The notes under the pieces are model-generated. The model had not been told where the DNA came from. It was given only the letters and a program-made list of their open reading frames with translations, and made no database searches. From Bryobacteraceae bacterium (GTDB taxonomy: Bacteria; Acidobacteriota; Terriglobia; Bryobacterales; Bryobacteraceae), in the NCBI GenBank assembly GCA_014860455.1, contig JACZJQ010000225.1, forward strand, positions 1-40,366: 40,366 nucleotides of DNA. The letters are read 5' to 3'. Both the position numbers and the translations under genes were made by a program. Positions 3,207 through 13,112 of this stretch are shown piece after piece (position 1 is the stretch's first letter; each line of letters opens with the position of its first letter).

Positions 3207-3260
3207 AAATATTACCGGGAGGGCAGGCTAACTTCAAATATTACCGGCACAATTTACCGC
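3207..3260. repeat. Repeated 12-mer AAATATTACCGG (two exact copies and a partial third)
   Basis: AAATATTACCGG is at 3207-3218 and again at 3236-3247, a centre distance of 29 bp. A weaker third version, AATTTACCGC, is at 3251-3260. The cluster sits 210-260 bp upstream of the PilZ-like start codon at 2997, inside an AT-rich patch. Spaced direct repeats of this kind are typical of regulator binding sites; which protein would bind is unknown. Confidence 0.5.
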
Positions 3261-3306
3261 GCATGTTTTTCGAGTACTAGAACATCACTCCGTCATTTCA
3301 CTTAGA

Positions 3307-3323
3307 ACTAATATACATTTAGT
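3307..3323. promoter_or_regulatory. Imperfect inverted repeat ACTAA-N7-TTAGT
   Basis: ACTAA at 3307-3311 and TTAGT at 3319-3323 are exact reverse complements separated by TATACAT. The arms can be stretched by two more bases with one mismatch. It is close to the repeated 12-mers and in the same AT-rich patch, so it may be part of a promoter or operator. No consensus was matched. Confidence 0.3.
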
Positions 3324-3761
3324 CCTGCTTCACTACTGTCCAATAAAGCGATATGGTTATCGCGCAATCAAAACAGAGCGGCCGGTCTTGTGGCTGTTGA
3401 GGGAACGCGGGACGCCCTCGAAACCACTCTGCAAGCTGTTGATTCCGAGTTCATCAGTTTGGCGTCTACGGTTGCACCGTCGCGCCTGCAAAGGCCGGGA
3501 TTGCTCGGCGGGTGACGATACCGCAGAGCCGGCGCGGGCATCGTCAGTCGTTGACTGAATCAGTGGAGGACGACGGCGGGAAAAACAATTCTCGGCTGAC
3601 TAAGAAACTGACTCCCATACTTCCAATTTTCGTACAGAGCCAAACCTCATCCCTCCTCACCTGCAATTTCTCTTCAGTTTTTTTTGCATCATAAACCGAG
3701 CGGCCACATCGTAATAGGTTTAGGCGGGCAGGGACCACGGGAGTTGGGCTTGGCAATCGCT

Positions 3762-3780
3762 CGAGGGGTGCGACTCCTCG
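3762..3780. other. Perfect 8-bp stem-loop in the non-coding stretch
   Basis: CGAGGGGT (3762-3769) pairs with ACTCCTCG (3773-3780) around a GCG loop, with one G-T pair. There is no T-run after it on either strand. It lies about 155 bp beyond the stop of the DUF4038 gene on the minus strand and could be a transcript end or part of an unknown RNA. Confidence 0.35.
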
Positions 3781-3935
3781 GTTCACCCACCATCGGCCAG
3801 GCATGACGGACGTCTGCCAGGCCGCAAGTTGTTCTGATCAATCCGTTCCGGCTTTCGCGCCGGGAGATCCGGACTTCAGGGCGCCTGGCAGATTCTCACC
3901 AGATTTCCGGTGGGATGGATCGCGCGTTCCGCAAA

Positions 3936-5294
3936 TCAGGGAACGGGCAGCGGGAACTTCGCAACTTCGTCTTCGAGGATCAGCAACCAGTCCTGGCCAC
4001 GGCCCGAGGTGGGCGGGGTGTAGGTTTGAAATGCCTGGTTGTCCCCTGTATGAATGTGGTGCGCAACGCCATAGCGCGGGTCCCACCAGATCTCTTTCAC
4101 ACGCTCGGCCAGGATGATGCTCCGGTCCACGGTGAACGGCTCCCCGCGCGGCGAATAGACAAAGGCGAACCGCCCGTCCGCGGCGCGGGCGGCGCGGATG
4201 GTGGCCGGCCCGGTGACCGGGCCGCTGCGGATGATCGACTGATCCGGGATCAGCGTCTGCCAAGGCCGTGACTCGAAAAGCCTCCGCAGATGCCCCATCT
4301 GAAACGCCCCCGGATGATCAAGCGCCTGCATCCAAGGAATGTCGGCGTAGATGGCCGAAGGCAGCCCCGGCTTCCACATCTGCCACACAGAATTATGCCC
4401 GTAAGTGTGGCCCGCCGCGCCGGCGAGCATGGCCCAATAGGCCGCCGTGCGCGCGTCGAAGTCGTCCATGCGATCCAGGCGGCTGTAGTTGGCGTTATAG
4501 AAGCCCACCGGAATCATCTCGTAGCGAGGTTCGCCGTCCAGGGTCGGTTTGGGCGGGTCGAGCGCGCGGTCGTGCTGGATATAAAGCCCGGTGTCGTGAT
4601 CGCGGGCGCCATGCGAAGTCTGCGACATGTGAAAGTCCAGCCACCGCGCGTCACGCAATTGCAGCGACGACATCCCCGGCCCCCGCGGATGGAACGTCAT
4701 CAGATGCCGCCCCTGGTCGCCCTCGGCCAGCCCATCGGCCATGGCGTCGATTATCGCGCGCTCGGCCGGCGTGCGAATGTTCTGATCTCCGCCGAGAATC
4801 CAGATGATTGGCTTGTCCTTGTACCGCGCACCGAGAAACCGGCCGAACGAGCGCGCATTCGCCGGATTGAACACGGCGTTTTTGTTGCCGGCTGTCCAGT
4901 ACGAGCCCCAGGTTGGGAGCATCCCCACCGTCAGCCCCAACGCCGCCGCGCGGTTGACGATCCAGTCCACGTGCTCGAAGTAGCCATCCACGGGACGGTC
5001 CGGATCGCGGTCGAGGAGCGGCAGATGCCCGTAAGGGTTCGGAACGGTCAACCCGTCGCGCTCGGCCAGCACCACGGCCTGAATCACCGTGAAGCCCTTG
5101 GCCGCGCGGTTGCGCAAGTAAAGATCGGCCTCCTCGCGGTTCAGCCGGTGGAAGAGTTCCCAAGCCGTATCGCCAAGATACAGGAACGGCCGCCCGTCGC
5201 CCTGCTGCAAGTGCCGTCCACCCGGCGAGACCTTCAACACCTGCGCCGGAGCCAGGGCGCAGCACAGCACTAGAAACACGGTTAGCCGGATCAT
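3936..5294 (-). CDS. Secreted glycoside hydrolase, DUF4038 (apiosidase-like) with C-terminal collagen-binding-like domain
   Basis: A 452-residue exported enzyme. The chosen start is ATG at 5294, giving a Sec leader (MIRLTVFLVLCCALAPAQ); in-frame codons further upstream run into the divergent promoter region. The N-terminal two thirds is a TIM barrel of the DUF4038/apiosidase-like type: FLYLGDTAWELFHRL, YLRNRAAKGFTVIQAVV, DWIVNRAAALGLTVGMLPTWG, IIWILGGDQN, and a Trp-rich YGHNSVWQMW segment. The last 90 residues match the small beta domain usually fused to it (RFAFVYSPRGEPF, then VKEIWWDPRYG). Family members act on plant cell-wall pectin side chains; the exact sugar is not known here. It is divergent to the GH2 gene at 5429, across 134 bp that must hold both promoters, and a shared role in plant polysaccharide breakdown is likely. 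Confidence 0.88.
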   Translation of the reverse strand: MIRLTVFLVLCCALAPAQVLKVSPGGRHLQQGDGRPFLYLGDTAWELFHRLNREEADLYLRNRAAKGFTVIQAVVLAERDGLTVPNPYGHLPLLDRDPDRPVDGYFEHVDWIVNRAAALGLTVGMLPTWGSYWTAGNKNAVFNPANARSFGRFLGARYKDKPIIWILGGDQNIRTPAERAIIDAMADGLAEGDQGRHLMTFHPRGPGMSSLQLRDARWLDFHMSQTSHGARDHDTGLYIQHDRALDPPKPTLDGEPRYEMIPVGFYNANYSRLDRMDDFDARTAAYWAMLAGAAGHTYGHNSVWQMWKPGLPSAIYADIPWMQALDHPGAFQMGHLRRLFESRPWQTLIPDQSIIRSGPVTGPATIRAARAADGRFAFVYSPRGEPFTVDRSIILAERVKEIWWDPRYGVAHHIHTGDNQAFQTYTPPTSGRGQDWLLILEDEVAKFPLPVP

Positions 5295-5428: not shown

Positions 5429-7576
5429 ATGACAATCCGTTCGCTATTTATCCTGTTCATAGGGGCCGTCTCCGCCTTCGCCGCCGGCCGCCAGACCATC
5501 TCCCTCAACGGAGAATGGCGCATGGCCGACAGTGTTGCGGCCGACCCAATGCCCGCCGACTTCGCGCATCGCGGCCCCGTCCCCGGCCTGGCAAACCTGG
5601 CCACGCCGGCATTCGTGGACGTGGACAAGTTCGACGGCCGTGAGTTTATCGATTCCAGCATCCGCGAGAAGAAACTCCCCGAACCGGCGCGCGTCAAGAC
5701 CGCCGGGGTCTCCCGCCAGGAGCGCAACTACTTCTGGTATCGCCGCGCTTTCCAGGGCACAGCAAAACACCAGTGGGCCATCCTGCGCGTCAACAAGGCG
5801 CAGTGGGGCACGGCCGTGTGGCTCAACGGAAAGAAGATCGGCGAACATCTCGGCTGTTTCACCGCCGGCCTGTTCGACCTGACTTCCGCGATCAACTGGT
5901 CCGGCCCCAACGACATTGTCATCCGCATCGGCGCCCATCCCAATGCCGTGCCCGATTGGGTTCCGGCGGGCACGGACTTCGAGAAGTACAAATGGACGGC
6001 GGGCATCTATGACAACGTCTCGCTCGCGATCGGCGACGGCCCGCGCATCGAGACCGTGCAGGTTGCGCCCAAAATCGCAGGTCCCGAAATCGTGGTTCAA
6101 ACCGTGATCGTCAATCCGGCGAAGACGCCCGCCACCATCGCGCTCAATCAGGTTGTGAAACCGTGGAAGGGCACGGCGATCAGTGGTCGCGACATCCCGC
6201 GCAACGTCGGTCTGGCCGCCGGCGAGACACGCACCATCACCAGCACGATCAAGCTGCCAGGTGCGAAGTTATGGACGCCCGAGGGCCCAAACCTCTACGT
6301 GCTCGAATCGTCCACTGGCGGCGACTCGCTGACCGCGCGATTCGGCGTTCGCGAGTTCCGCTTCGACACGCCCACCAAGCGCGCCTATCTGAACGGCAAG
6401 CTCTACTTCCTCCGCGGAGGCAACATCACGCTCCACCGTTTCTTCGAAGATCCGGAGTGCAAGGACCGCCCGTGGGACGAGAAGTGGGTGCGGCGACTGC
6501 TGGCTGAGATGCCGCGCTGGATGAACTGGAACAGCTTCCGATTCTGCATCGGCCCGGTGCCGGACATGTGGCTCGACATCGCCGACGAAGCCGGCCTGCT
6601 AATCCAGAATGAGTTCTTCATCTGGAACGGCCGCAGCAACTTCCCGCCCTACCGGACCGAAGAACTGCTCACCCAATACGCCGAGTGGATGAGGGACACC
6701 TGGAACCACCCTAGCGTGGCAGTCTGGGACGCGAGCAACGAAACCGACGCACCGGCATTGCGCGACGTGGTTGTCCCCCAAAGCCGGAAACTGGATCTGT
6801 CGAACCGCCCCTGGGATAACGGCTATTCGACGCCATCGGGTCCCGACGATCCGGTGGAGGATCACCCCTACCTCTTCAGCACGTTTCGTAGTGGCGGCAA
6901 GTTCTCGATGACGCAACTGGAGCAGATGACCGGCGGCAAGACCACCAATTCAGGCCACCCTTCCGCCCACGCAGTCGTCATCAACGAATACGACTGGTTG
7001 TGGCTGAACCGCGACGGCACGCCCACTCTTCTGACCGAGAAGGTATACGAGAATCTCGTCGGCCCCAACGCTACCCCGGATCAGCGCTTCGAGGCCTTGG
7101 CCTACAACCTGGCCGGCCTGACGGAGTTCTGGCGCGCCCACCGCAACGCCGCCGGTGTGCAGCACCTTGCCTGGCTGACTTGCAGCTATCCCGGCGTGAA
7201 GACATCGGACCACTGGCGGGATGTCGGCAAGCTGGAACTGGAGCCGCACTTCGCCGATTGGGTCCGCGAATCGTTCCGCCCGCTGGGCGTCTACATCAAC
7301 TTCTGGCAGCCGAAGTTGAAGGCCGGCTCACAGAGAACCTACGCCGTGATGATGGTCAACGACGAGGGTGTGGGGCGCAGCGGCAGTCTGCGATTGGAGT
7401 TCACGGGAGCCGAGCCGGCCGTCGTCCCCTTTGAAATTCCAGCCTACGGCGCGCAGACGCTGCAGATTCGCCTGCAAGCGCCAGCCACGGCGGGTCGCAC
7501 CATATTGAAAGCGACCGCATCGGCGGAGGGCATCGCCGAACCGACGATCAGCCGCCGCAAGGTCCAGGTGGAATAG
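5429..7576 (+). CDS. Secreted glycoside hydrolase family 2 protein
   Basis: A 715-residue protein with a Sec leader (MTIRSLFILFIGAVSAFA). The domain order is that of GH2: an N-terminal sugar-binding jelly roll (ISLNGEWRM; WYRRAF; VWLNGKKIGEHLG; WTAGIYDNVSLAI), an immunoglobulin-like middle domain, then a TIM barrel that opens with FLRGGNITLHRFF. The acid/base Glu is E438 in WDASNETD and the likely nucleophile is E520 in VINEYDWLW. The C-terminal 90 residues form another beta domain. The family includes beta-galactosidases, beta-mannosidases and beta-glucuronidases; specificity cannot be read from these motifs. It is divergent to the DUF4038 glycosidase, and the two probably serve the same polysaccharide. 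Confidence 0.9.
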   Translation: MTIRSLFILFIGAVSAFAAGRQTISLNGEWRMADSVAADPMPADFAHRGPVPGLANLATPAFVDVDKFDGREFIDSSIREKKLPEPARVKTAGVSRQERNYFWYRRAFQGTAKHQWAILRVNKAQWGTAVWLNGKKIGEHLGCFTAGLFDLTSAINWSGPNDIVIRIGAHPNAVPDWVPAGTDFEKYKWTAGIYDNVSLAIGDGPRIETVQVAPKIAGPEIVVQTVIVNPAKTPATIALNQVVKPWKGTAISGRDIPRNVGLAAGETRTITSTIKLPGAKLWTPEGPNLYVLESSTGGDSLTARFGVREFRFDTPTKRAYLNGKLYFLRGGNITLHRFFEDPECKDRPWDEKWVRRLLAEMPRWMNWNSFRFCIGPVPDMWLDIADEAGLLIQNEFFIWNGRSNFPPYRTEELLTQYAEWMRDTWNHPSVAVWDASNETDAPALRDVVVPQSRKLDLSNRPWDNGYSTPSGPDDPVEDHPYLFSTFRSGGKFSMTQLEQMTGGKTTNSGHPSAHAVVINEYDWLWLNRDGTPTLLTEKVYENLVGPNATPDQRFEALAYNLAGLTEFWRAHRNAAGVQHLAWLTCSYPGVKTSDHWRDVGKLELEPHFADWVRESFRPLGVYINFWQPKLKAGSQRTYAVMMVNDEGVGRSGSLRLEFTGAEPAVVPFEIPAYGAQTLQIRLQAPATAGRTILKATASAEGIAEPTISRRKVQVE

Positions 7577-7588
7577 AAACACGAAAGT

Positions 7589-7615
7589 CCGGCCGCCACC
7601 GGGGCGCCGGGCCGG
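7589..7615. terminator. GC-rich hairpin just after the GH2 stop
   Basis: CCGGCC (7589-7594) and GGCCGG (7610-7615) form a 6-bp stem 13 bp after the GH2 stop codon and before the convergent NmrA-like gene. It lacks a T-run, so a terminator role is only suggested by its place. Confidence 0.3.
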
Positions 7616-7708
7616 TCCAGGAACCGGGTCGCGGTTGATGGCGCGACTGGCTGTGGAGAGCTGCTGGCCGCACTCGGTTGTGCCCATCAGCCCATTGTAC
7701 GTGGGCTG

Positions 7709-8455
7709 CTACGAGCAGATGCCGATGGCCGAGCCGAGGTTCGACGATTCAGCCAACTGGTCGAGCATGAAGCGGGCGACGTCAGCGCGGGCAATTTTGG
7801 CAGTGGTCACGAAACTGCCGATGTCCTGGCCTGATCGGCATTCGCCTCGCCCCTGATCGTCGGTGAGCGCGGCGGGGCGGACGATGACCCAGTCGAGCGA
7901 CGAGGCGGCGATGAGCCGCTCCTGACGGGTTTTGTCGTAGAAATGGAACGGCAGGATGACGGGCAAAACAAACAGGGTGTACTGCAGGCCCATGCGGCCG
8001 GCGGTGGATCCGATGCCGAGTGAGGTCTCGCAGACCAGACGACCGACGCCATGCGTCTCCATGGCGGCGATGACGTTGCGCGTCCCTTCGGACAGGATGC
8101 TTGACGGGCCGAGGAAACGCTTATGGCCGAGCGCCGAGACGACGGCGTCCTGGCCCCGGACCGCCGCATCGACCGAAGCCGCGTCGAGCACGTCGCCCTT
8201 CATGATCCGGAGACGCGGGTGTTCGATGGCGAGTTTCGAGGCGTCGCGGACCAAGGCGGTGACTTCATGGCCGCGGTCGAGGGCTTGCGCGACCAGACAG
8301 CGGCCGGTGCCGCCCGTGGCGCCGATGATGAGCACGCGGGCGGGTTCGGCGGCCTTGGCTCCGGATGGGCGCGGGACGCGGCGGCCGAGCCCGCGGAGGG
8401 CGAGCAGCAGGGTGAGGAGGAGAGCGTAGAGCAGGTAGGCGATCAGGATGGCCAT
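7709..8455 (-). CDS. NmrA/SDR-like NAD(P)-binding protein with an N-terminal membrane anchor
   Basis: A 248-residue protein of the atypical short-chain dehydrogenase group (NAD(P)H-binding, NmrA-like). Residues 1-24 (MAILIAYLLYALLLTLLLALRG) are a membrane segment, followed by a short basic linker. The Rossmann motif is VLIIGATGGTGRCLV, and the next blocks are also typical: VTALVRDASKL, IMKGDVLDAASVDAAVRGQDAVVSALG, LDWVIVRPAALTDD. The usual catalytic YxxxK of true SDR enzymes is not evident (the nearest is FYDKTRQ), so it may act as a redox sensor or on an unknown small molecule. The membrane anchor is unusual for this family. It is convergent with GH2 and stands alone on its strand. Confidence 0.8.
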   Translation of the reverse strand: MAILIAYLLYALLLTLLLALRGLGRRVPRPSGAKAAEPARVLIIGATGGTGRCLVAQALDRGHEVTALVRDASKLAIEHPRLRIMKGDVLDAASVDAAVRGQDAVVSALGHKRFLGPSSILSEGTRNVIAAMETHGVGRLVCETSLGIGSTAGRMGLQYTLFVLPVILPFHFYDKTRQERLIAASSLDWVIVRPAALTDDQGRGECRSGQDIGSFVTTAKIARADVARFMLDQLAESSNLGSAIGICS

Positions 8456-8601
8456 GGCTTGCTCAGATTAGATCACAGACGTCCAACGAATGAGGAAGAG
8501 GATCAGTCCGTGGCGGAACACTCTGCAGATCGAGCAACTCCCGGCTGACGCTTAGCGCGAAGTCGCGGAACCTGGGGCCGGAGTGTGGTGTCATTGACTA
8601 A

Positions 8602-9531
8602 GTGCGGCGGGCAATCCTTACTCTCCTTTTCATTTGGGTTGGTGTTCATCAGACACGATTCACCTGGGAGACCTACCTGGCCCGGCAGGACCACCTGTTT
8701 GTCCCTTTGACCCTAAAGCCGTTTACGAATGAGATCGAGTGGGCGGCTTCTCCCTCCCAGGACTTTCTAGCGGGCGACGGCGTGATCGCAGTGAGGCGCA
8801 AGGTGCTCACAGGCTCTTCGCATTGGTGGCGAGAGTTGGCTGCGGCTTACCGTGAAAAGTCTTCCGACCTACCTCTACCCCTGGAACTGACCATCGCGTC
8901 AGCGGAGGGGCCAACGATGAACGTTGAGGTCTACCGGCAGCATTGCAACTGCGGGATCATGGGAAGCGAGCTGATCTGCAATTGGTTATTTCCACCCTTG
9001 TACATCCTCGCTTTGGGCTTCGTTGCCGCCACCAAACGGCCAGATTCAAGGTTGGCATGGCTCCTACTCTTCGCAGCGATCTCGGTTTCTGTCTTTCGCT
9101 TCCATCCCATACACCCACCGCTTCCATTTACTGAGAGTGTGGATCCACGCATGTGGAGTGATGCGATGCGGATTCCGGCAATGACCTGGGAGTGGTTTTT
9201 CCGGTTAGCTTGGCCGGCCTGGCTGTTGTTAGCCTTTCGGCGTACTTGGTGGGCTGGGTGGGCTGTCATTGGATACGCCCTGTGCGGAGCGGTTACGTAT
9301 TGCTTCTGGGCCGAGAACTTCTCAGTCCTGGAGCCTTGGCAGCGCGAATTGAATTTCGTGTTTCCATGGTTCAGCGATGTTTCCCTGGGCGCGCACAGAT
9401 ACGTGGATCGGGTCATGTTCGCGCTGGCGCGCGGTCCCTGGCTCAGTGTCGTTCAGATCGGGCTCGGCGTGATCTCGACTTGGGGAGTCTGGAGTTTCAT
9501 CCGGTCGGGCGAGTCTTCTGGCACAACATGA
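8602..9531 (+). CDS. Membrane protein of unknown function, possible sensor module
   Basis: A 309-residue protein starting with GTG and no clear ribosome site. An N-terminal hydrophobic segment is followed by about 110 residues outside the membrane with a PDZ-like rhythm (GDGVIAVRRKVLTGSSHWWRE, then PLPLELTIASAEGP). A CNCG motif comes next, then about five to six hydrophobic segments. This layout resembles the N-terminal halves of some acidobacterial sensor kinases and SpoIIE-type phosphatases, but here the protein ends after the membrane part with no output domain. The coding sequence looks less GC-rich than its neighbours, which may hint at transfer. The family is not recognised and the PDZ comparison is inference. 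Confidence 0.65.
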   Translation: MRRAILTLLFIWVGVHQTRFTWETYLARQDHLFVPLTLKPFTNEIEWAASPSQDFLAGDGVIAVRRKVLTGSSHWWRELAAAYREKSSDLPLPLELTIASAEGPTMNVEVYRQHCNCGIMGSELICNWLFPPLYILALGFVAATKRPDSRLAWLLLFAAISVSVFRFHPIHPPLPFTESVDPRMWSDAMRIPAMTWEWFFRLAWPAWLLLAFRRTWWAGWAVIGYALCGAVTYCFWAENFSVLEPWQRELNFVFPWFSDVSLGAHRYVDRVMFALARGPWLSVVQIGLGVISTWGVWSFIRSGESSGTT

Positions 9532-9546
9532 TCGGACAGGGATCTG

Positions 9547-9858
9547 TCAGGGCAGCGGGTTCAGTTCAGCGAGATCCAATATCTTCGCCTCGGCCAGGAT
9601 GCGGGGGGCAATGTGGCGGTTCAGGTACTTGCGGTTGACCAGATCGATCCGCCGGCCGCCAAAGATGTCCGAGAGTTCCGTTTCCAGGGCGTCCCGTTCG
9701 ACTAGCGAGAGATGGCGTTGCGGATCGTAATCGACGAGAAGGTCGATGTCGCTGGATGGGGCTTGCTCGCCGCGGACGGTTGAGCCGAACACAGAAAGCC
9801 TGACGATGCCGTACTTGCGGCAGAGCGTGGCGAGTTGTGCTTTGTCTGGCCCGGTCAA
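9547..9858 (-). CDS. MNT-type nucleotidyltransferase (MntA-like)
   Basis: A 103-residue minimal nucleotidyltransferase. The signature VFGSTVRGE with a following SSDIDLLVDY gives the GS-x10-DxD catalytic motif (G25/S26, D37/D39), and a third acidic residue is in RRIDLVN. Such proteins usually pair with a HEPN-domain RNase: the transferase is the antitoxin that AMPylates the HEPN toxin. No HEPN gene sits on either side here, so this is an orphan or the remains of a toxin-antitoxin pair. The start is TTG at 9858, with GAGG about nine bases upstream. It is convergent with the membrane protein at 8602 and lies next to the decayed hemB tail. Confidence 0.82.
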   Translation of the reverse strand: MTGPDKAQLATLCRKYGIVRLSVFGSTVRGEQAPSSDIDLLVDYDPQRHLSLVERDALETELSDIFGGRRIDLVNRKYLNRHIAPRILAEAKILDLAELNPLP

Positions 9859-9904
9859 AGTCTGACAGCCTCACCAACTATTCTAGATCGGGCCGGAAGA
9901 CTCG

Positions 9905-10016
9905 CTACCCAAGAAACCGCGCGGCGGGTTTGGCGCTGTAGGTGAGGATGATGTTCGAGCCGACTCGTTGATTGAGGTGAGCGATTCCATTATGAGGCTG
10001 ACCAAGCCGATCCGGC
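9905..10016 (-). pseudogene. Decayed duplicate of the hemB 3' end
   Basis: This stretch repeats the last 37 or so codons of hemB, in the same orientation, 2,236 bp away from the true hemB end. Read by eye, about four fifths of bases match 12141-12252 over the best 90 bp. Translation gives LIMESLTSI in one frame and GSNIILTYSAKPAARFLG in the next, against MMESLTSI and [18 protein letters not shown] in HemB; one missing base near 9968 causes the shift. Similarity continues about 14 bp past the stop (GGCCGGAA in both copies). No start or upstream part of hemB is present, so it cannot make an enzyme. It marks one edge of the segment holding the MNIO cassette. Confidence 0.85.
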
Positions 10017-10079: not shown

Positions 10080-10787
10080 TCAACGCGGGCAAGTAGGCGG
10101 GGGTTGTGCTGGAACCGGGAAGAGTTGATTCCTCGATGCCGCAACACCAGCACTCGATCGGGGCCTCATCCCGGATTCCGCCAGAACCGGCAGGGCCATC
10201 GTCCAACGCACTTCGCCGCGCTCATCCAGCGATCCGAGCAGCAGAGTCCGCCGCCGCGGAACCCTGCGAGGGCGCTCGCCTGACTGGAGGGCCGAGAGAA
10301 GCAGTTGCGGGTCGTTTCGGAACTCCACCGTCACCGCGGTAGGCTCCTCTTCGGGTTGGCGCGGCCGTCTCAGGATCAGCAGAGCCGATTCATAGGCCAG
10401 CACATCGGACAGATATGAGACCCTCATGCCTTCGTCCAGCCTCGAATACAGATAGTCGATGAACGCCTCCGCCTCCTCGACAAAGTAGAAGCTCGACGAT
10501 GGCCGCGCCTGCCAGAACCTGCCAGCCTCCTCGGCCAATCTCTGGTTCCCAAGCAGCCTGCAAGTGAGGGGCAGAATCGAGAAGAGCTTGTTGAGGCGGA
10601 ATCCGAGGTGCAACTTCCGCATCACGTCCAAACCCGGAGAATTTGCCAGTTTGGCGAGGTCGCGGGCCTCGGCTTGGGTGAGCCCATCCGTGGCCAGCGG
10701 CGCCTCGCCGCCCGCCCGGAACATCTCGCGGAATCCCACATCGGTGATCAGCCGTACGAACGCCGATTGGAATGCGGCTTCGCTCAT
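10080..10787 (-). CDS. Partner protein of the MNIO oxidase (DUF2063/MbnC-HvfC-like)
   Basis: A 235-residue protein whose ATG at 10787 overlaps the MNIO stop in an ATGA arrangement, so the two are translationally coupled. The N-terminal part, AAFQSAFVRLITDVGFREMF followed by GLTQAEARDLAKLA, matches the helical start of the DUF2063 family of putative DNA-binding/RRE-like partners. Known partners (MbnC, HvfC, TglI) bind the leader of the precursor and present it to the iron enzyme. The middle part (EEAEAFIDYLYSRLDEG) and a C-terminal beta-rich part (AVTVEFRNDPQLLLSAL, then GEVRWTMALPVLA) complete it. The call rests mainly on context because the sequence is divergent. The last 20 residues run into Pro-rich sequence near the decayed hemB tail and may differ from relatives. 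Confidence 0.72.
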   Translation of the reverse strand: MSEAAFQSAFVRLITDVGFREMFRAGGEAPLATDGLTQAEARDLAKLANSPGLDVMRKLHLGFRLNKLFSILPLTCRLLGNQRLAEEAGRFWQARPSSSFYFVEEAEAFIDYLYSRLDEGMRVSYLSDVLAYESALLILRRPRQPEEEPTAVTVEFRNDPQLLLSALQSGERPRRVPRRRTLLLGSLDERGEVRWTMALPVLAESGMRPRSSAGVAASRNQLFPVPAQPPPTCPR

Positions 10788-11743
10788 GCGGGAATCCCAA
10801 CCGCCCGGCGAGCCGACTGAGCGCGCTTCCAGGCCCGTTTCATGCGGCCAAGCTCTTCGCTGAGGCCATTTTCGCCCATCGTCGAGTACCAGGAGCCGAA
10901 CAATTCGAAGACGACGCCCGCCACGGTGTCCGTGTGGGCCAGCACGTAGTCCAGCATCGCCCAGACGGGTTCCGGCGTCCGCCCGGAGTGAGAATCGAGG
11001 TAATAGGGGCCATCTTCGTGGCCTCCCCCAAGATGGATCTCGACAACATTCGACAGGTCGAGCTCTTCCAGCAACGTCCATGCGCTGCCGCCCATGTTGA
11101 GGCTGTTGCAGTAGACATTGTGCAGATCCAGCAGGAGTCCGCAGCCGGTCTGGCGGCACAGCGTATTGAGAAACCGCGATTCGCTTAACTCGTCGCCCGG
11201 CATTTCCACGAAGTAGACGTTGTTCTCAAGCAGGAACGGTGCTTGAATCCTGCGCTGTACCAGTTGCACCCGCCGCCCCAGCAGCCGCAGCGATTCATAT
11301 GTGCGCCTCAAAGGCATGGTCACGCCCGCGTTCGATTCTCCCCCCCGCTCGAATCCATGAGCATCGGCGAGGGTTGTGCCGGTGAGATGGAATGCGATGT
11401 GATCGCTGTGCCAGGGCGAGCCCAGCCAGGACTGCCACTTCGCCAGCTGAACCAGTTGCGAGCGGTTGAATCTGTGCGCGCTGCCGATCGAAAGTCCGAT
11501 CGAGTGCATGATGACCGGCATCCGCGACAGCATTCGGCGCAGGAACACGGTCTGCACGGCGTCTTCGATGTACCGCGGCGATGCGCCTATCCCACGATCG
11601 ATCCAGAATACGTCCGGGACAATCTCCAGGAAATCGAATTCGTGATAGTGGTTGTCGAGAAACGGCTGGAACTGGGGCTGGTAGTTCAGCCCCACCCCCA
11701 GCTTCGGAATCGTCGTAATCTGTTGGGGCGCCCGATCAGCCAA
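10784..11743 (-). CDS. MNIO (DUF692) multinuclear non-haem iron oxidase, RiPP-modifying
   Basis: A 319-residue TIM barrel of the DUF692 family (MbnB, TglH, HvfB). These enzymes hold two or three irons and oxidatively rearrange Cys or other residues of a peptide precursor. The metal-ligand pattern is complete: FLEIVPD (E40), IMHSIGLS (H80), WHSDHIAF (H112, D114, H115), FLLENNVYF (E173), LLDLHNVYCN (D206, H208), EIHLGGGHEDG (H237), YYLDSHSG (D250, H252), VFELFGSW (E280). The opening KLGVGLNYQPQ is also typical. The start is TTG at 11743, eight bases inside the precursor gene; no better codon lies nearby. Gene order precursor, MNIO, partner is the classic layout. The chemistry on this precursor is unknown. 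Confidence 0.93.
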   Translation of the reverse strand: MADRAPQQITTIPKLGVGLNYQPQFQPFLDNHYHEFDFLEIVPDVFWIDRGIGASPRYIEDAVQTVFLRRMLSRMPVIMHSIGLSIGSAHRFNRSQLVQLAKWQSWLGSPWHSDHIAFHLTGTTLADAHGFERGGESNAGVTMPLRRTYESLRLLGRRVQLVQRRIQAPFLLENNVYFVEMPGDELSESRFLNTLCRQTGCGLLLDLHNVYCNSLNMGGSAWTLLEELDLSNVVEIHLGGGHEDGPYYLDSHSGRTPEPVWAMLDYVLAHTDTVAGVVFELFGSWYSTMGENGLSEELGRMKRAWKRAQSARRAVGIPA

Positions 11744-11933
11744 CGCGATTCAGCACCTGGCTGTCGAAAACAAACTTGTCGAGCCCTGACAGGCAGGGAG
11801 CACACCCGCGGGGAGCGATCTCCTTGGGCAGAGTCAGGACGATCTCGAGGTGCTTCACGAGTTCCTTGAAAGGCGTGTCCGCGGCAATCTGCAGTTCCAC
11901 CTGGCGGAACTTCGTCGGTACTTTTGCAGCCAT
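11736..11933 (-). CDS. Putative RiPP precursor peptide with a GCAPC core
   Basis: A 65-residue peptide directly upstream of and overlapping the MNIO gene. The start is ATG at 11933 with AGAGGAG about ten bases upstream; the longer frame back to 12032 has no such site and covers the promoter region. Residues 1-41 look like a leader: charged and helical, with QVELQIAADTPFKELVKHLE in the middle. Residues 42-65 carry the only two Cys in RGCAPCLSGLDKF (C44, C47). No signal peptide is present, so the product is made in the cytoplasm, unlike bufferins and HvfA. It does not resemble methanobactin precursors or TglA. The precursor role is inferred from size, place and the Cys motif. Modification at the CxxC pair is likely, but it could also be a small metal-binding protein. 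Confidence 0.75.
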   Translation of the reverse strand: MAAKVPTKFRQVELQIAADTPFKELVKHLEIVLTLPKEIAPRGCAPCLSGLDKFVFDSQVLNRVG

Positions 11934-11990
11934 CTTGGTAATTCTCCTCTGACGTTGAATAGGCCGGGTCAGGCAGGATAACCCGGTCGG

Positions 11991-12128: not shown

Positions 12129-12252
12129 GCCGGAATTGAGCTACCCCAACATTCGCGCGGCGGGTTTGGCGAAGTAGGTGAGGATCATGTCCGAGCCGGC
12201 GCGTTTGATGGAGGTGAGCGATTCCATCATGGCGCGGTCGAGGTCGATCCAG
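12129..12252 (-). repeat. Direct repeat: intact hemB 3' end, matching the copy at 9891-10016
   Basis: This is the functional member of a pair of direct repeats that flank the MNIO cassette. The match starts about 12 bp beyond the hemB stop and fades near GATCC at both copies. Its distance to the other copy is about 2.24 kb. Confidence 0.8.
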
Positions 12253-13112
12253 CCGTTGCGGGCGGCGGCGTGGATCATCGAGAATTCGCCGGAAACCTGG
12301 TAGGCGGCGATCGGCAGGTCCCAGGCATCTCGAGCCATGCGGATGATGTCCAGATAGGGCATGGCGGGCTTGACCATGATGATGTCGGCGCCCTCTTCGA
12401 CGTCGAGTTCGATTTCGAGCATGGCTTCACGGGCGTTGGGCGGGTCCATCTGATAGCTGCGGCGGTCGCCGAACTGGGGAGCGGATTCGGCGGCGTCGCG
12501 GAAGGGCCCGTAGAACGAACTGGCGTACTTCGCCGCGTAGCTCATGATGGGCGTCTTCGTGAGACCGGCGTCATCGAGGGCGTCGCGGATGGCGGCGACG
12601 CGGCCGTCCATCATGTCCGACGGGGCGACGATGTCGGCGCCGGCGCGGGCATGGGAGACGGCGGACTTGGCAAGCCAGGTGAGGGTGATGTCGTTATCGA
12701 CATCGTCATCGACGACGAGGCCGCAGTGGCCGTGGCTGGTGTATTCGCAGTTGCAGACGTCGGTGACGACGACCAGCGAGGGCACGGCGCGTTTGATGGC
12801 ACGGACCGTGCGCTGGACGATGCCGTTATCGTCGTAGGCTCCGGAGGCCTTCTCGTCTTTATGTTCAGGGATGCCGAACAGGATGACGCCGCCGATGCCG
12901 AGCGAGTGGACCTCCTCGCACTCCTTGACGATCTCGTCGATGGACAACTGATAGTTGCCGGGCATGGATTTGATCTCGCGGCGGACGCCTTCGCCCTCGA
13001 CGGCGAACAGCGGCAGGATGAAATCGTCTGGAGCGAGTTGCGTTTCGCGGACGAGGCGGCGGAGCGGTTCAGTGGCCCTCAGGCGGCGCATACGATTGAT
13101 GGGGAAGCCCAT
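12141..13112 (-). CDS. hemB: Delta-aminolevulinic acid dehydratase (porphobilinogen synthase)
   Basis: Condenses two 5-aminolevulinate molecules to porphobilinogen, the first common step of tetrapyrrole synthesis. The protein has 323 residues, the normal length. The two Schiff-base lysines are K195 ([17 protein letters not shown]) and K248 ([10 protein letters not shown]). The zinc-binding type is shown by three cysteines in [15 protein letters not shown] (C120, C122, C130). The start is ATG at 13112; M8 is possible, and neither has a strong ribosome site. It lies 29 bp after the stop of the gene at 13142, on the same strand. Its last 37 codons are duplicated at 9905. The MNIO cassette begins about 200 bp downstream in the same orientation. 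Confidence is very high. Confidence 0.97.

Follow-up and report, generated by a model that had tools for sequence, protein, structure and literature searches.

We describe a three-gene unit on the minus strand of a 40,366-nucleotide stretch of genomic DNA from a soil bacterium of the family Bryobacteraceae (contig JACZJQ010000225.1 of assembly GCA_014860455.1; the whole stretch is called the window here). Judged from sequence comparison and by analogy with characterized relatives, we consider it moderately probable that these genes form a self-contained, stand-alone MNIO (DUF692) cassette and that this cassette makes a cytosolic, Cys-oxidized small protein, probably with a soft-metal or redox site. 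The three overlapping minus-strand reading frames reported by the first-pass annotation are all present as described, the precursor and MNIO genes sharing 8 bp and the MNIO and partner genes sharing 4 bp (ATGA), and the analyses below support its reading of the locus as an MNIO cassette whose precursor lacks a signal peptide. The positions of the genes and of the sequence features discussed below are collected in Table 1.

Table 1. Cassette genes and associated sequence features, in positions of the window
Feature	Position	Strand	Details and basis
Precursor gene	11736..11933	-	ATG 11933, stop at 11736; 65 aa; MAAKVPTKFRQVELQIAADTPFKELVKHLEIVLTLPKEIAPRGCAPCLSGLDKFVFDSQVLNRVG; only two Cys
CxxC codons (C44-A-P-C47), proposed modification site	11793..11804	-	Alignment of 11 peptides
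AGGAG, likely ribosome-binding site of precursor gene	11944..11948	-	Sequence; ten bases 5' of ATG
MNIO (DUF692) gene	10784..11743	-	TTG 11743, TGA 10784; 319 aa; PF05114, TglH match, nine Fe ligands
Partner gene, putative PME-type 2 (TglI/HvfC-like)	10080..10787	-	ATG 10787, stop at 10080; 235 aa; fold matches, alignment
hemB 3' end, one arm of direct repeat bracketing cassette	12140..12253	-	Sequence comparison
Decayed second hemB 3' end, other repeat arm	9904..10016	-	80-83% identical; spacing 2236-2237 bp

The precursor peptide and its family

Loci with related MNIOs were gathered from Acidobacteriota genomes and GTDB contigs. Ten of these loci (L002, L005, L006, L034-L038, L059, and L071) have a gene for a homologous peptide immediately ahead of the MNIO gene; nine are from Acidobacteriota and one (L002) is from a gammaproteobacterial MAG, with sampling outside Acidobacteriota being thin. 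Residues C44, C47, S49, and G50, which make up a CxxCxSG motif, do not vary across the alignment of 11 peptides (window included), and exactly two Cys, both in the CxxC, are found in 10/10 peptides counted (L071, whose peptide has a long Lys-rich N terminus, stands outside this count). The first-pass annotation had made its reading depend on the conservation of the peptide gene next to related DUF692 genes; this comparison was run, and the peptide adjoins the MNIO in 11/11 members of the CxxCxSG clade. A divergent MNIO of the same clade, in L072 (reverse strand, oriented positions about 1113-1475), represents a twelfth member, and its upstream peptide carries a shortened CxCLSG (GCACLSG), not CxxCxSG.

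A profile made from the L002 and L059 peptides recovers the window peptide from among 3,168 ORFs at an E value of 4.7e-14, and a profile of nine peptides from which the window was left out recovers it at 3.6e-10; a profile of the distant group places the held-out loci's peptides next in rank, with insignificant E values. The closest pairs give dN/dS far under 1 (0.09/0.43 for L035/L036 and 0.16/1.46 for L035/L037), which indicates purifying selection on the precursor. Of 121 genomes from the window's family, six carry the peptide; they are the same six that hold this MNIO type, and the peptide adjoins it each time. Among 396 genomes of the phylum, strong matches lie solely beside such an MNIO. 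These counts are partly circular because most of those sequences went into the profile. The two marginal matches among the 396 (E values of about 0.008-0.009) are interrupted frames. No confident orphan peptide away from such an MNIO appeared in the profile search of the 396 phylum and 121 family genomes, an absence to which the circularity does not apply.

The claim that the precursor has no signal peptide is borne out by hydropathy: neither the window peptide nor nine homologs have a hydrophobic N terminus, and the best 12-mer of the window peptide reaches 1.27, versus 2.0-2.2 in two signal-bearing precursors of the bufferin type, so that the Sec signal typical of bufferins is absent here. 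Pfam and NCBIfam hold no model for the peptide, and scans of it and of six related or candidate precursors against both libraries gave chance-level matches only, as did a search of the peptide profile against the PDB (the CxxC of NADH dehydrogenase). An AlphaFold model of the peptide, built from two sequences, has a pLDDT of 47. The precursor had been called unfamiliar, a description to be qualified in view of the literature, where a group of putative signal-less CxxC precursors belonging to MNIO network cluster 7, adjamnio-7, has already been mentioned (e.g., WP_078758616 of Novilysobacter spongiicola) and given no function (PMC12452194). Compared by description only, the window peptide resembles adjamnio-7 in being signal-less, bearing a CxxC, and lying beside a non-bufferin MNIO, and it is a real possibility that the window family falls within that group, although window-type loci are mainly found in Acidobacteriota.

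The MNIO enzyme and its partner protein

The DUF692 assignment was clear in the Pfam scan, with the window enzyme scoring 176 bits against PF05114 (E value of 1e-51; cut-off, 25), which places it in the MNIO superfamily; it is the sole MNIO of its genome. It nonetheless falls far under the cut-off of every curated NCBIfam MNIO subfamily, the nearest model being BufB (148 bits versus a cut-off of 310), followed by ApyH (107/400), HvfB (104/360), ChrH (57/600), and MbnB (22/325). The best solved relative in a PDB search is TglH (8hci; E value of 3.5e-24), in which iron is bound by H71, H107, E151, D184, N187, H216, D229, H231, and E258 (PMC10880893). The equivalent window residues are H80, H115, E173, D206, N209, H237, D250, H252, and E280, which agrees with the full metal-ligand pattern noted earlier (9/9), and these nine positions are invariant across 14 aligned sequences and kept in every full-coverage homolog.

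Two residues important in characterized MNIOs are missing from the window clade. The first is Asp240 of MbnB, the proposed general base, located two residues past the last Glu ligand (PMC8888699). At this position the window clade has F, H, or I (E-F-H-E-S or E-[LIM]-[FI]-G), whereas the Asp is kept in the aligned TIGR04222-type MNIOs (E-R-D) and in the bufferin-type MNIOs examined, which carry E-x-D (E-W-D in L015 and L062 by alignment and in L010, L042-L045, and L060 by translation). The second is Asn73, essential in TglH, which corresponds to I82 in the window and to I or V across the clade, leaving the enzyme without this mark of TglH-type carbon excision. Since both the MbnB Asp and the TglH Asn are absent, the reaction is not assignable by these marks, and the missing Asp at ligand +2 means that a bufferin-like thiooxazole is not assured.

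On an MNIO tree of 27 rows, all CxxCxSG loci lie to the same side of a single branch (support of 83/89; 89% of bootstrap trees), separate from the bufferin type (100/100) and the TIGR04222 type (94/93). The window MNIO groups with those of L059, L071, and the gammaproteobacterial L002 at 95/97, and its grouping with L002 is a sign of transfer between phyla. A sister group with modest support comprises L007, L039, and L040, whose upstream peptides are signal-less and carry a related-looking GCxxC (GCxxCG-like) motif. Plasmid searches returned other MNIO types or nothing, and a scan of viral contigs gave two short partial MNIO matches.

Two other kinds of MNIO locus were seen along the way. In L008, L009, L041, L077, and L078, Acidobacteriota MNIOs follow membrane proteins with Cys/Gly-rich tails, which by eye look like TIGR04222 proteins; the TIGR04222 type is described as mostly actinobacterial. 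In L098 (NZ_CP156687.1 of Burkholderia stagnalis, positions 3210-5122), a TglH-like MNIO accompanies an Ala-rich precursor with repeated KCAA/HCAA units, and the neighbors are methyltransferase and radical SAM genes.

For the partner protein, the proposed comparison with DUF2063 (PF09836) gave a match of 23.9 bits that stays slightly under the Pfam cut-off of 27.2, and the partner thus falls short of the bufferin type. PME-type 2 partners have been defined as encoded after the MNIO gene, free of a DUF2063 signature, and similar in structure to TglI/NGO1945 (PMC12452194). The AlphaFold model of the window partner is poor (pLDDT of 49.5, with 73-81 only at residues 151-200); with this low-confidence model, Foldseek ranked TglI first (E value of 6e-3) and NGO1945 second (E value of 0.13) in the PDB, and a second structural comparison gave Z scores of 6.1 and 3.9, respectively, the likeness residing mainly in the C-terminal half. 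A search of the partner profile against the PDB gave no match. Because the top structural matches, TglI and NGO1945, are known MNIO partners, we call the window partner PME-type 2 in the sense of the cited study, with the caution that a poor model demands. About 33 residues at its C terminus have no counterpart in most relatives in the alignment. At positions 10080-10180, the partner extends by these ~33 residues into unrelated sequence ahead of the hemB repeat, perhaps through loss of a stop codon at the junction.

Genomic setting of the cassette

Across the cassettes, the flanking genes have no common family beyond the cassette genes themselves, and the idea that the cassette is part of a larger conserved locus was rejected for this reason. 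The first-pass annotation had remarked on the lack of transporter and copper genes around the cassette. Consistent with this, a Pfam scan of 20 ORFs from the window found no copper or export family, no transporter, protease, PEARL, or copper gene recurs beside the homologous cassettes examined, and no copper gene is linked to the cassette in any of these loci. Around the window cassette lie hemB, genes for glycoside hydrolases, and further metabolic genes. Elsewhere, the nearest neighbors include dcd and dut in L049, a CbiM-type cobalt uptake gene in L051, an arabinofuranosidase gene in L048, and a gene for a cysteine dioxygenase-like protein in L002. In L049 (positions 6041-9173), the cassette sits between dcd and dut, suggesting that it was inserted into a nucleotide-metabolism gene pair.

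The window cassette is bracketed by a direct repeat of the hemB 3' end, one arm of which has decayed (Table 1). Flanking repeats were rejected as a general feature of the cassettes, since the window is alone among the seven loci checked in having them. GC3 is 0.73-0.77 in the cassette genes versus 0.83-0.85 in hemB and two neighbors, and a genome of the same genus (G377), which has no MNIO, is 88% identical up to the hemB end and continues with unrelated DNA. The simplest reading is that the cassette was gained at the hemB 3' end; no integrase was identified. Adjoining the hemB remnant, at positions 9547-9858 of the minus strand, is a small nucleotidyltransferase of the minimal type (PF01909), in a stretch of DNA that was not found in genomes of the same genus.

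Proposed function and alternative readings

By analogy with MbnBC, TglHI, and the bufferin maturases, the partner would bind the peptide and present its CxxC loop to the multi-iron center. As in characterized relatives, one cysteine thiolate would then bind Fe1 and O2 would be activated. The Cys, one or both of those in the motif, would be oxidized by up to four electrons, for which the simplest product would be a 5-thiooxazole-type heterocycle, a different product being quite possible. The modified peptide probably remains intact in the cytosol as a small protein, given that the whole peptide is conserved, beyond a core, and that no protease or exporter recurs. Its paired sulfur groups, three residues apart, would most probably serve as a site for a soft metal (Cu(I)-type) or for redox work, a guess prompted by the pairing of the sulfurs and by the likeness to captophorins and bulbicupramide.

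The bufferin, captophorin, and oxazolin systems (BufABC, FonABC, and HvfABC) share with the window the precursor-MNIO-partner order, a Cys-bearing precursor, and the MNIO superfamily. A conceivable alternative, if not the one we favor, is that we are dealing with a bufferin or captophorin system confined to the cytosol, whose product, with both Cys converted to 5-thiooxazoles, sequesters Cu(I) present in excess. BufB is the nearest NCBIfam model, several MNIO/DUF2063 pairs yield 5-thiooxazole, which binds Cu(I) (PMC13097082, PMC12538549), and for such products the literature has considered storage of copper in the cytosol, without processing. However, bufferin-type systems are characterized by Sec signals, DUF2063 PME-type 1 partners, and precursors of the DUF2282, KCG, or CKG type, whereas the window precursor has neither a signal peptide nor KCG or CKG repeats, its partner has no PF09836 match over the cut-off, and its MNIO lacks the Asp at ligand +2, scores far under the BufB cut-off, and lies outside the bufferin clade.

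The TglHI system (3-thiaglutamate, pearlins) provides the best PDB match for both the enzyme and the partner and resembles the window in its signal-less substrate and PME-type 2 partner; moreover, the MbnB Asp is missing in the window clade as it is in TglH. This would fit an MNIO that carries out another Cys reaction (e.g., TglH-like carbon excision, backbone cleavage, or hydroxylation) on a peptide serving as a scaffold, from which the modified residue is later released. We regard this as unlikely. TglA is a scaffold to which a PEARL adds Cys, whereas the Cys of the window peptide are internal rather than C-terminal and are followed by conserved residues past the CxxC, unlike a release site; in addition, TglH's Asn73 is replaced throughout the clade, and no protease, PEARL, or transporter gene recurs. 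MbnBC (methanobactin) likewise combines a tri-iron Cys-oxidizing enzyme and a partner with a signal-less precursor, but the similarity of the window MNIO to the MbnB model is very weak (21.7 bits), Asp240 is missing, and the transport genes of methanobactin clusters were not seen beside the window cassette.

Slightly less probable still is that the small protein, rather than being a substrate, acts as a third, conserved subunit or a redox/metal chaperone that gives the MNIO iron or electrons, as would suit a conserved, protein-like peptide with a CxxC and no variable core whose substrate role is not proven by gene order alone; however, nothing else that could be a substrate is found repeatedly near the cassettes, and precursor-MNIO-partner is the standard order of bufferin clusters (PMC12452194).

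Our preferred reading, a cytosolic small protein oxidized at Cys, can be taken further. It is tempting to speculate, though we hold this as doubtful, that a new MNIO clade, in which MbnB's base Asp and TglH's Asn are both missing, introduces a new kind of modification into the CxxCxSG loop of a cytosolic protein that stays intact, and thereby provides a genetically encoded intracellular metal/redox cofactor on a mobile three-gene cassette.

With two residues lost that are essential or proposed to be catalytic elsewhere, what sets the outcome of the MNIO reaction becomes directly testable in this clade, and the cassette is easy to express, with a minimal set of three genes and no transporter, protease, or regulator among them. 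If the preferred reading is true, MNIO chemistry would reach beyond exported copper-binding peptides to small proteins kept in the cytosol.
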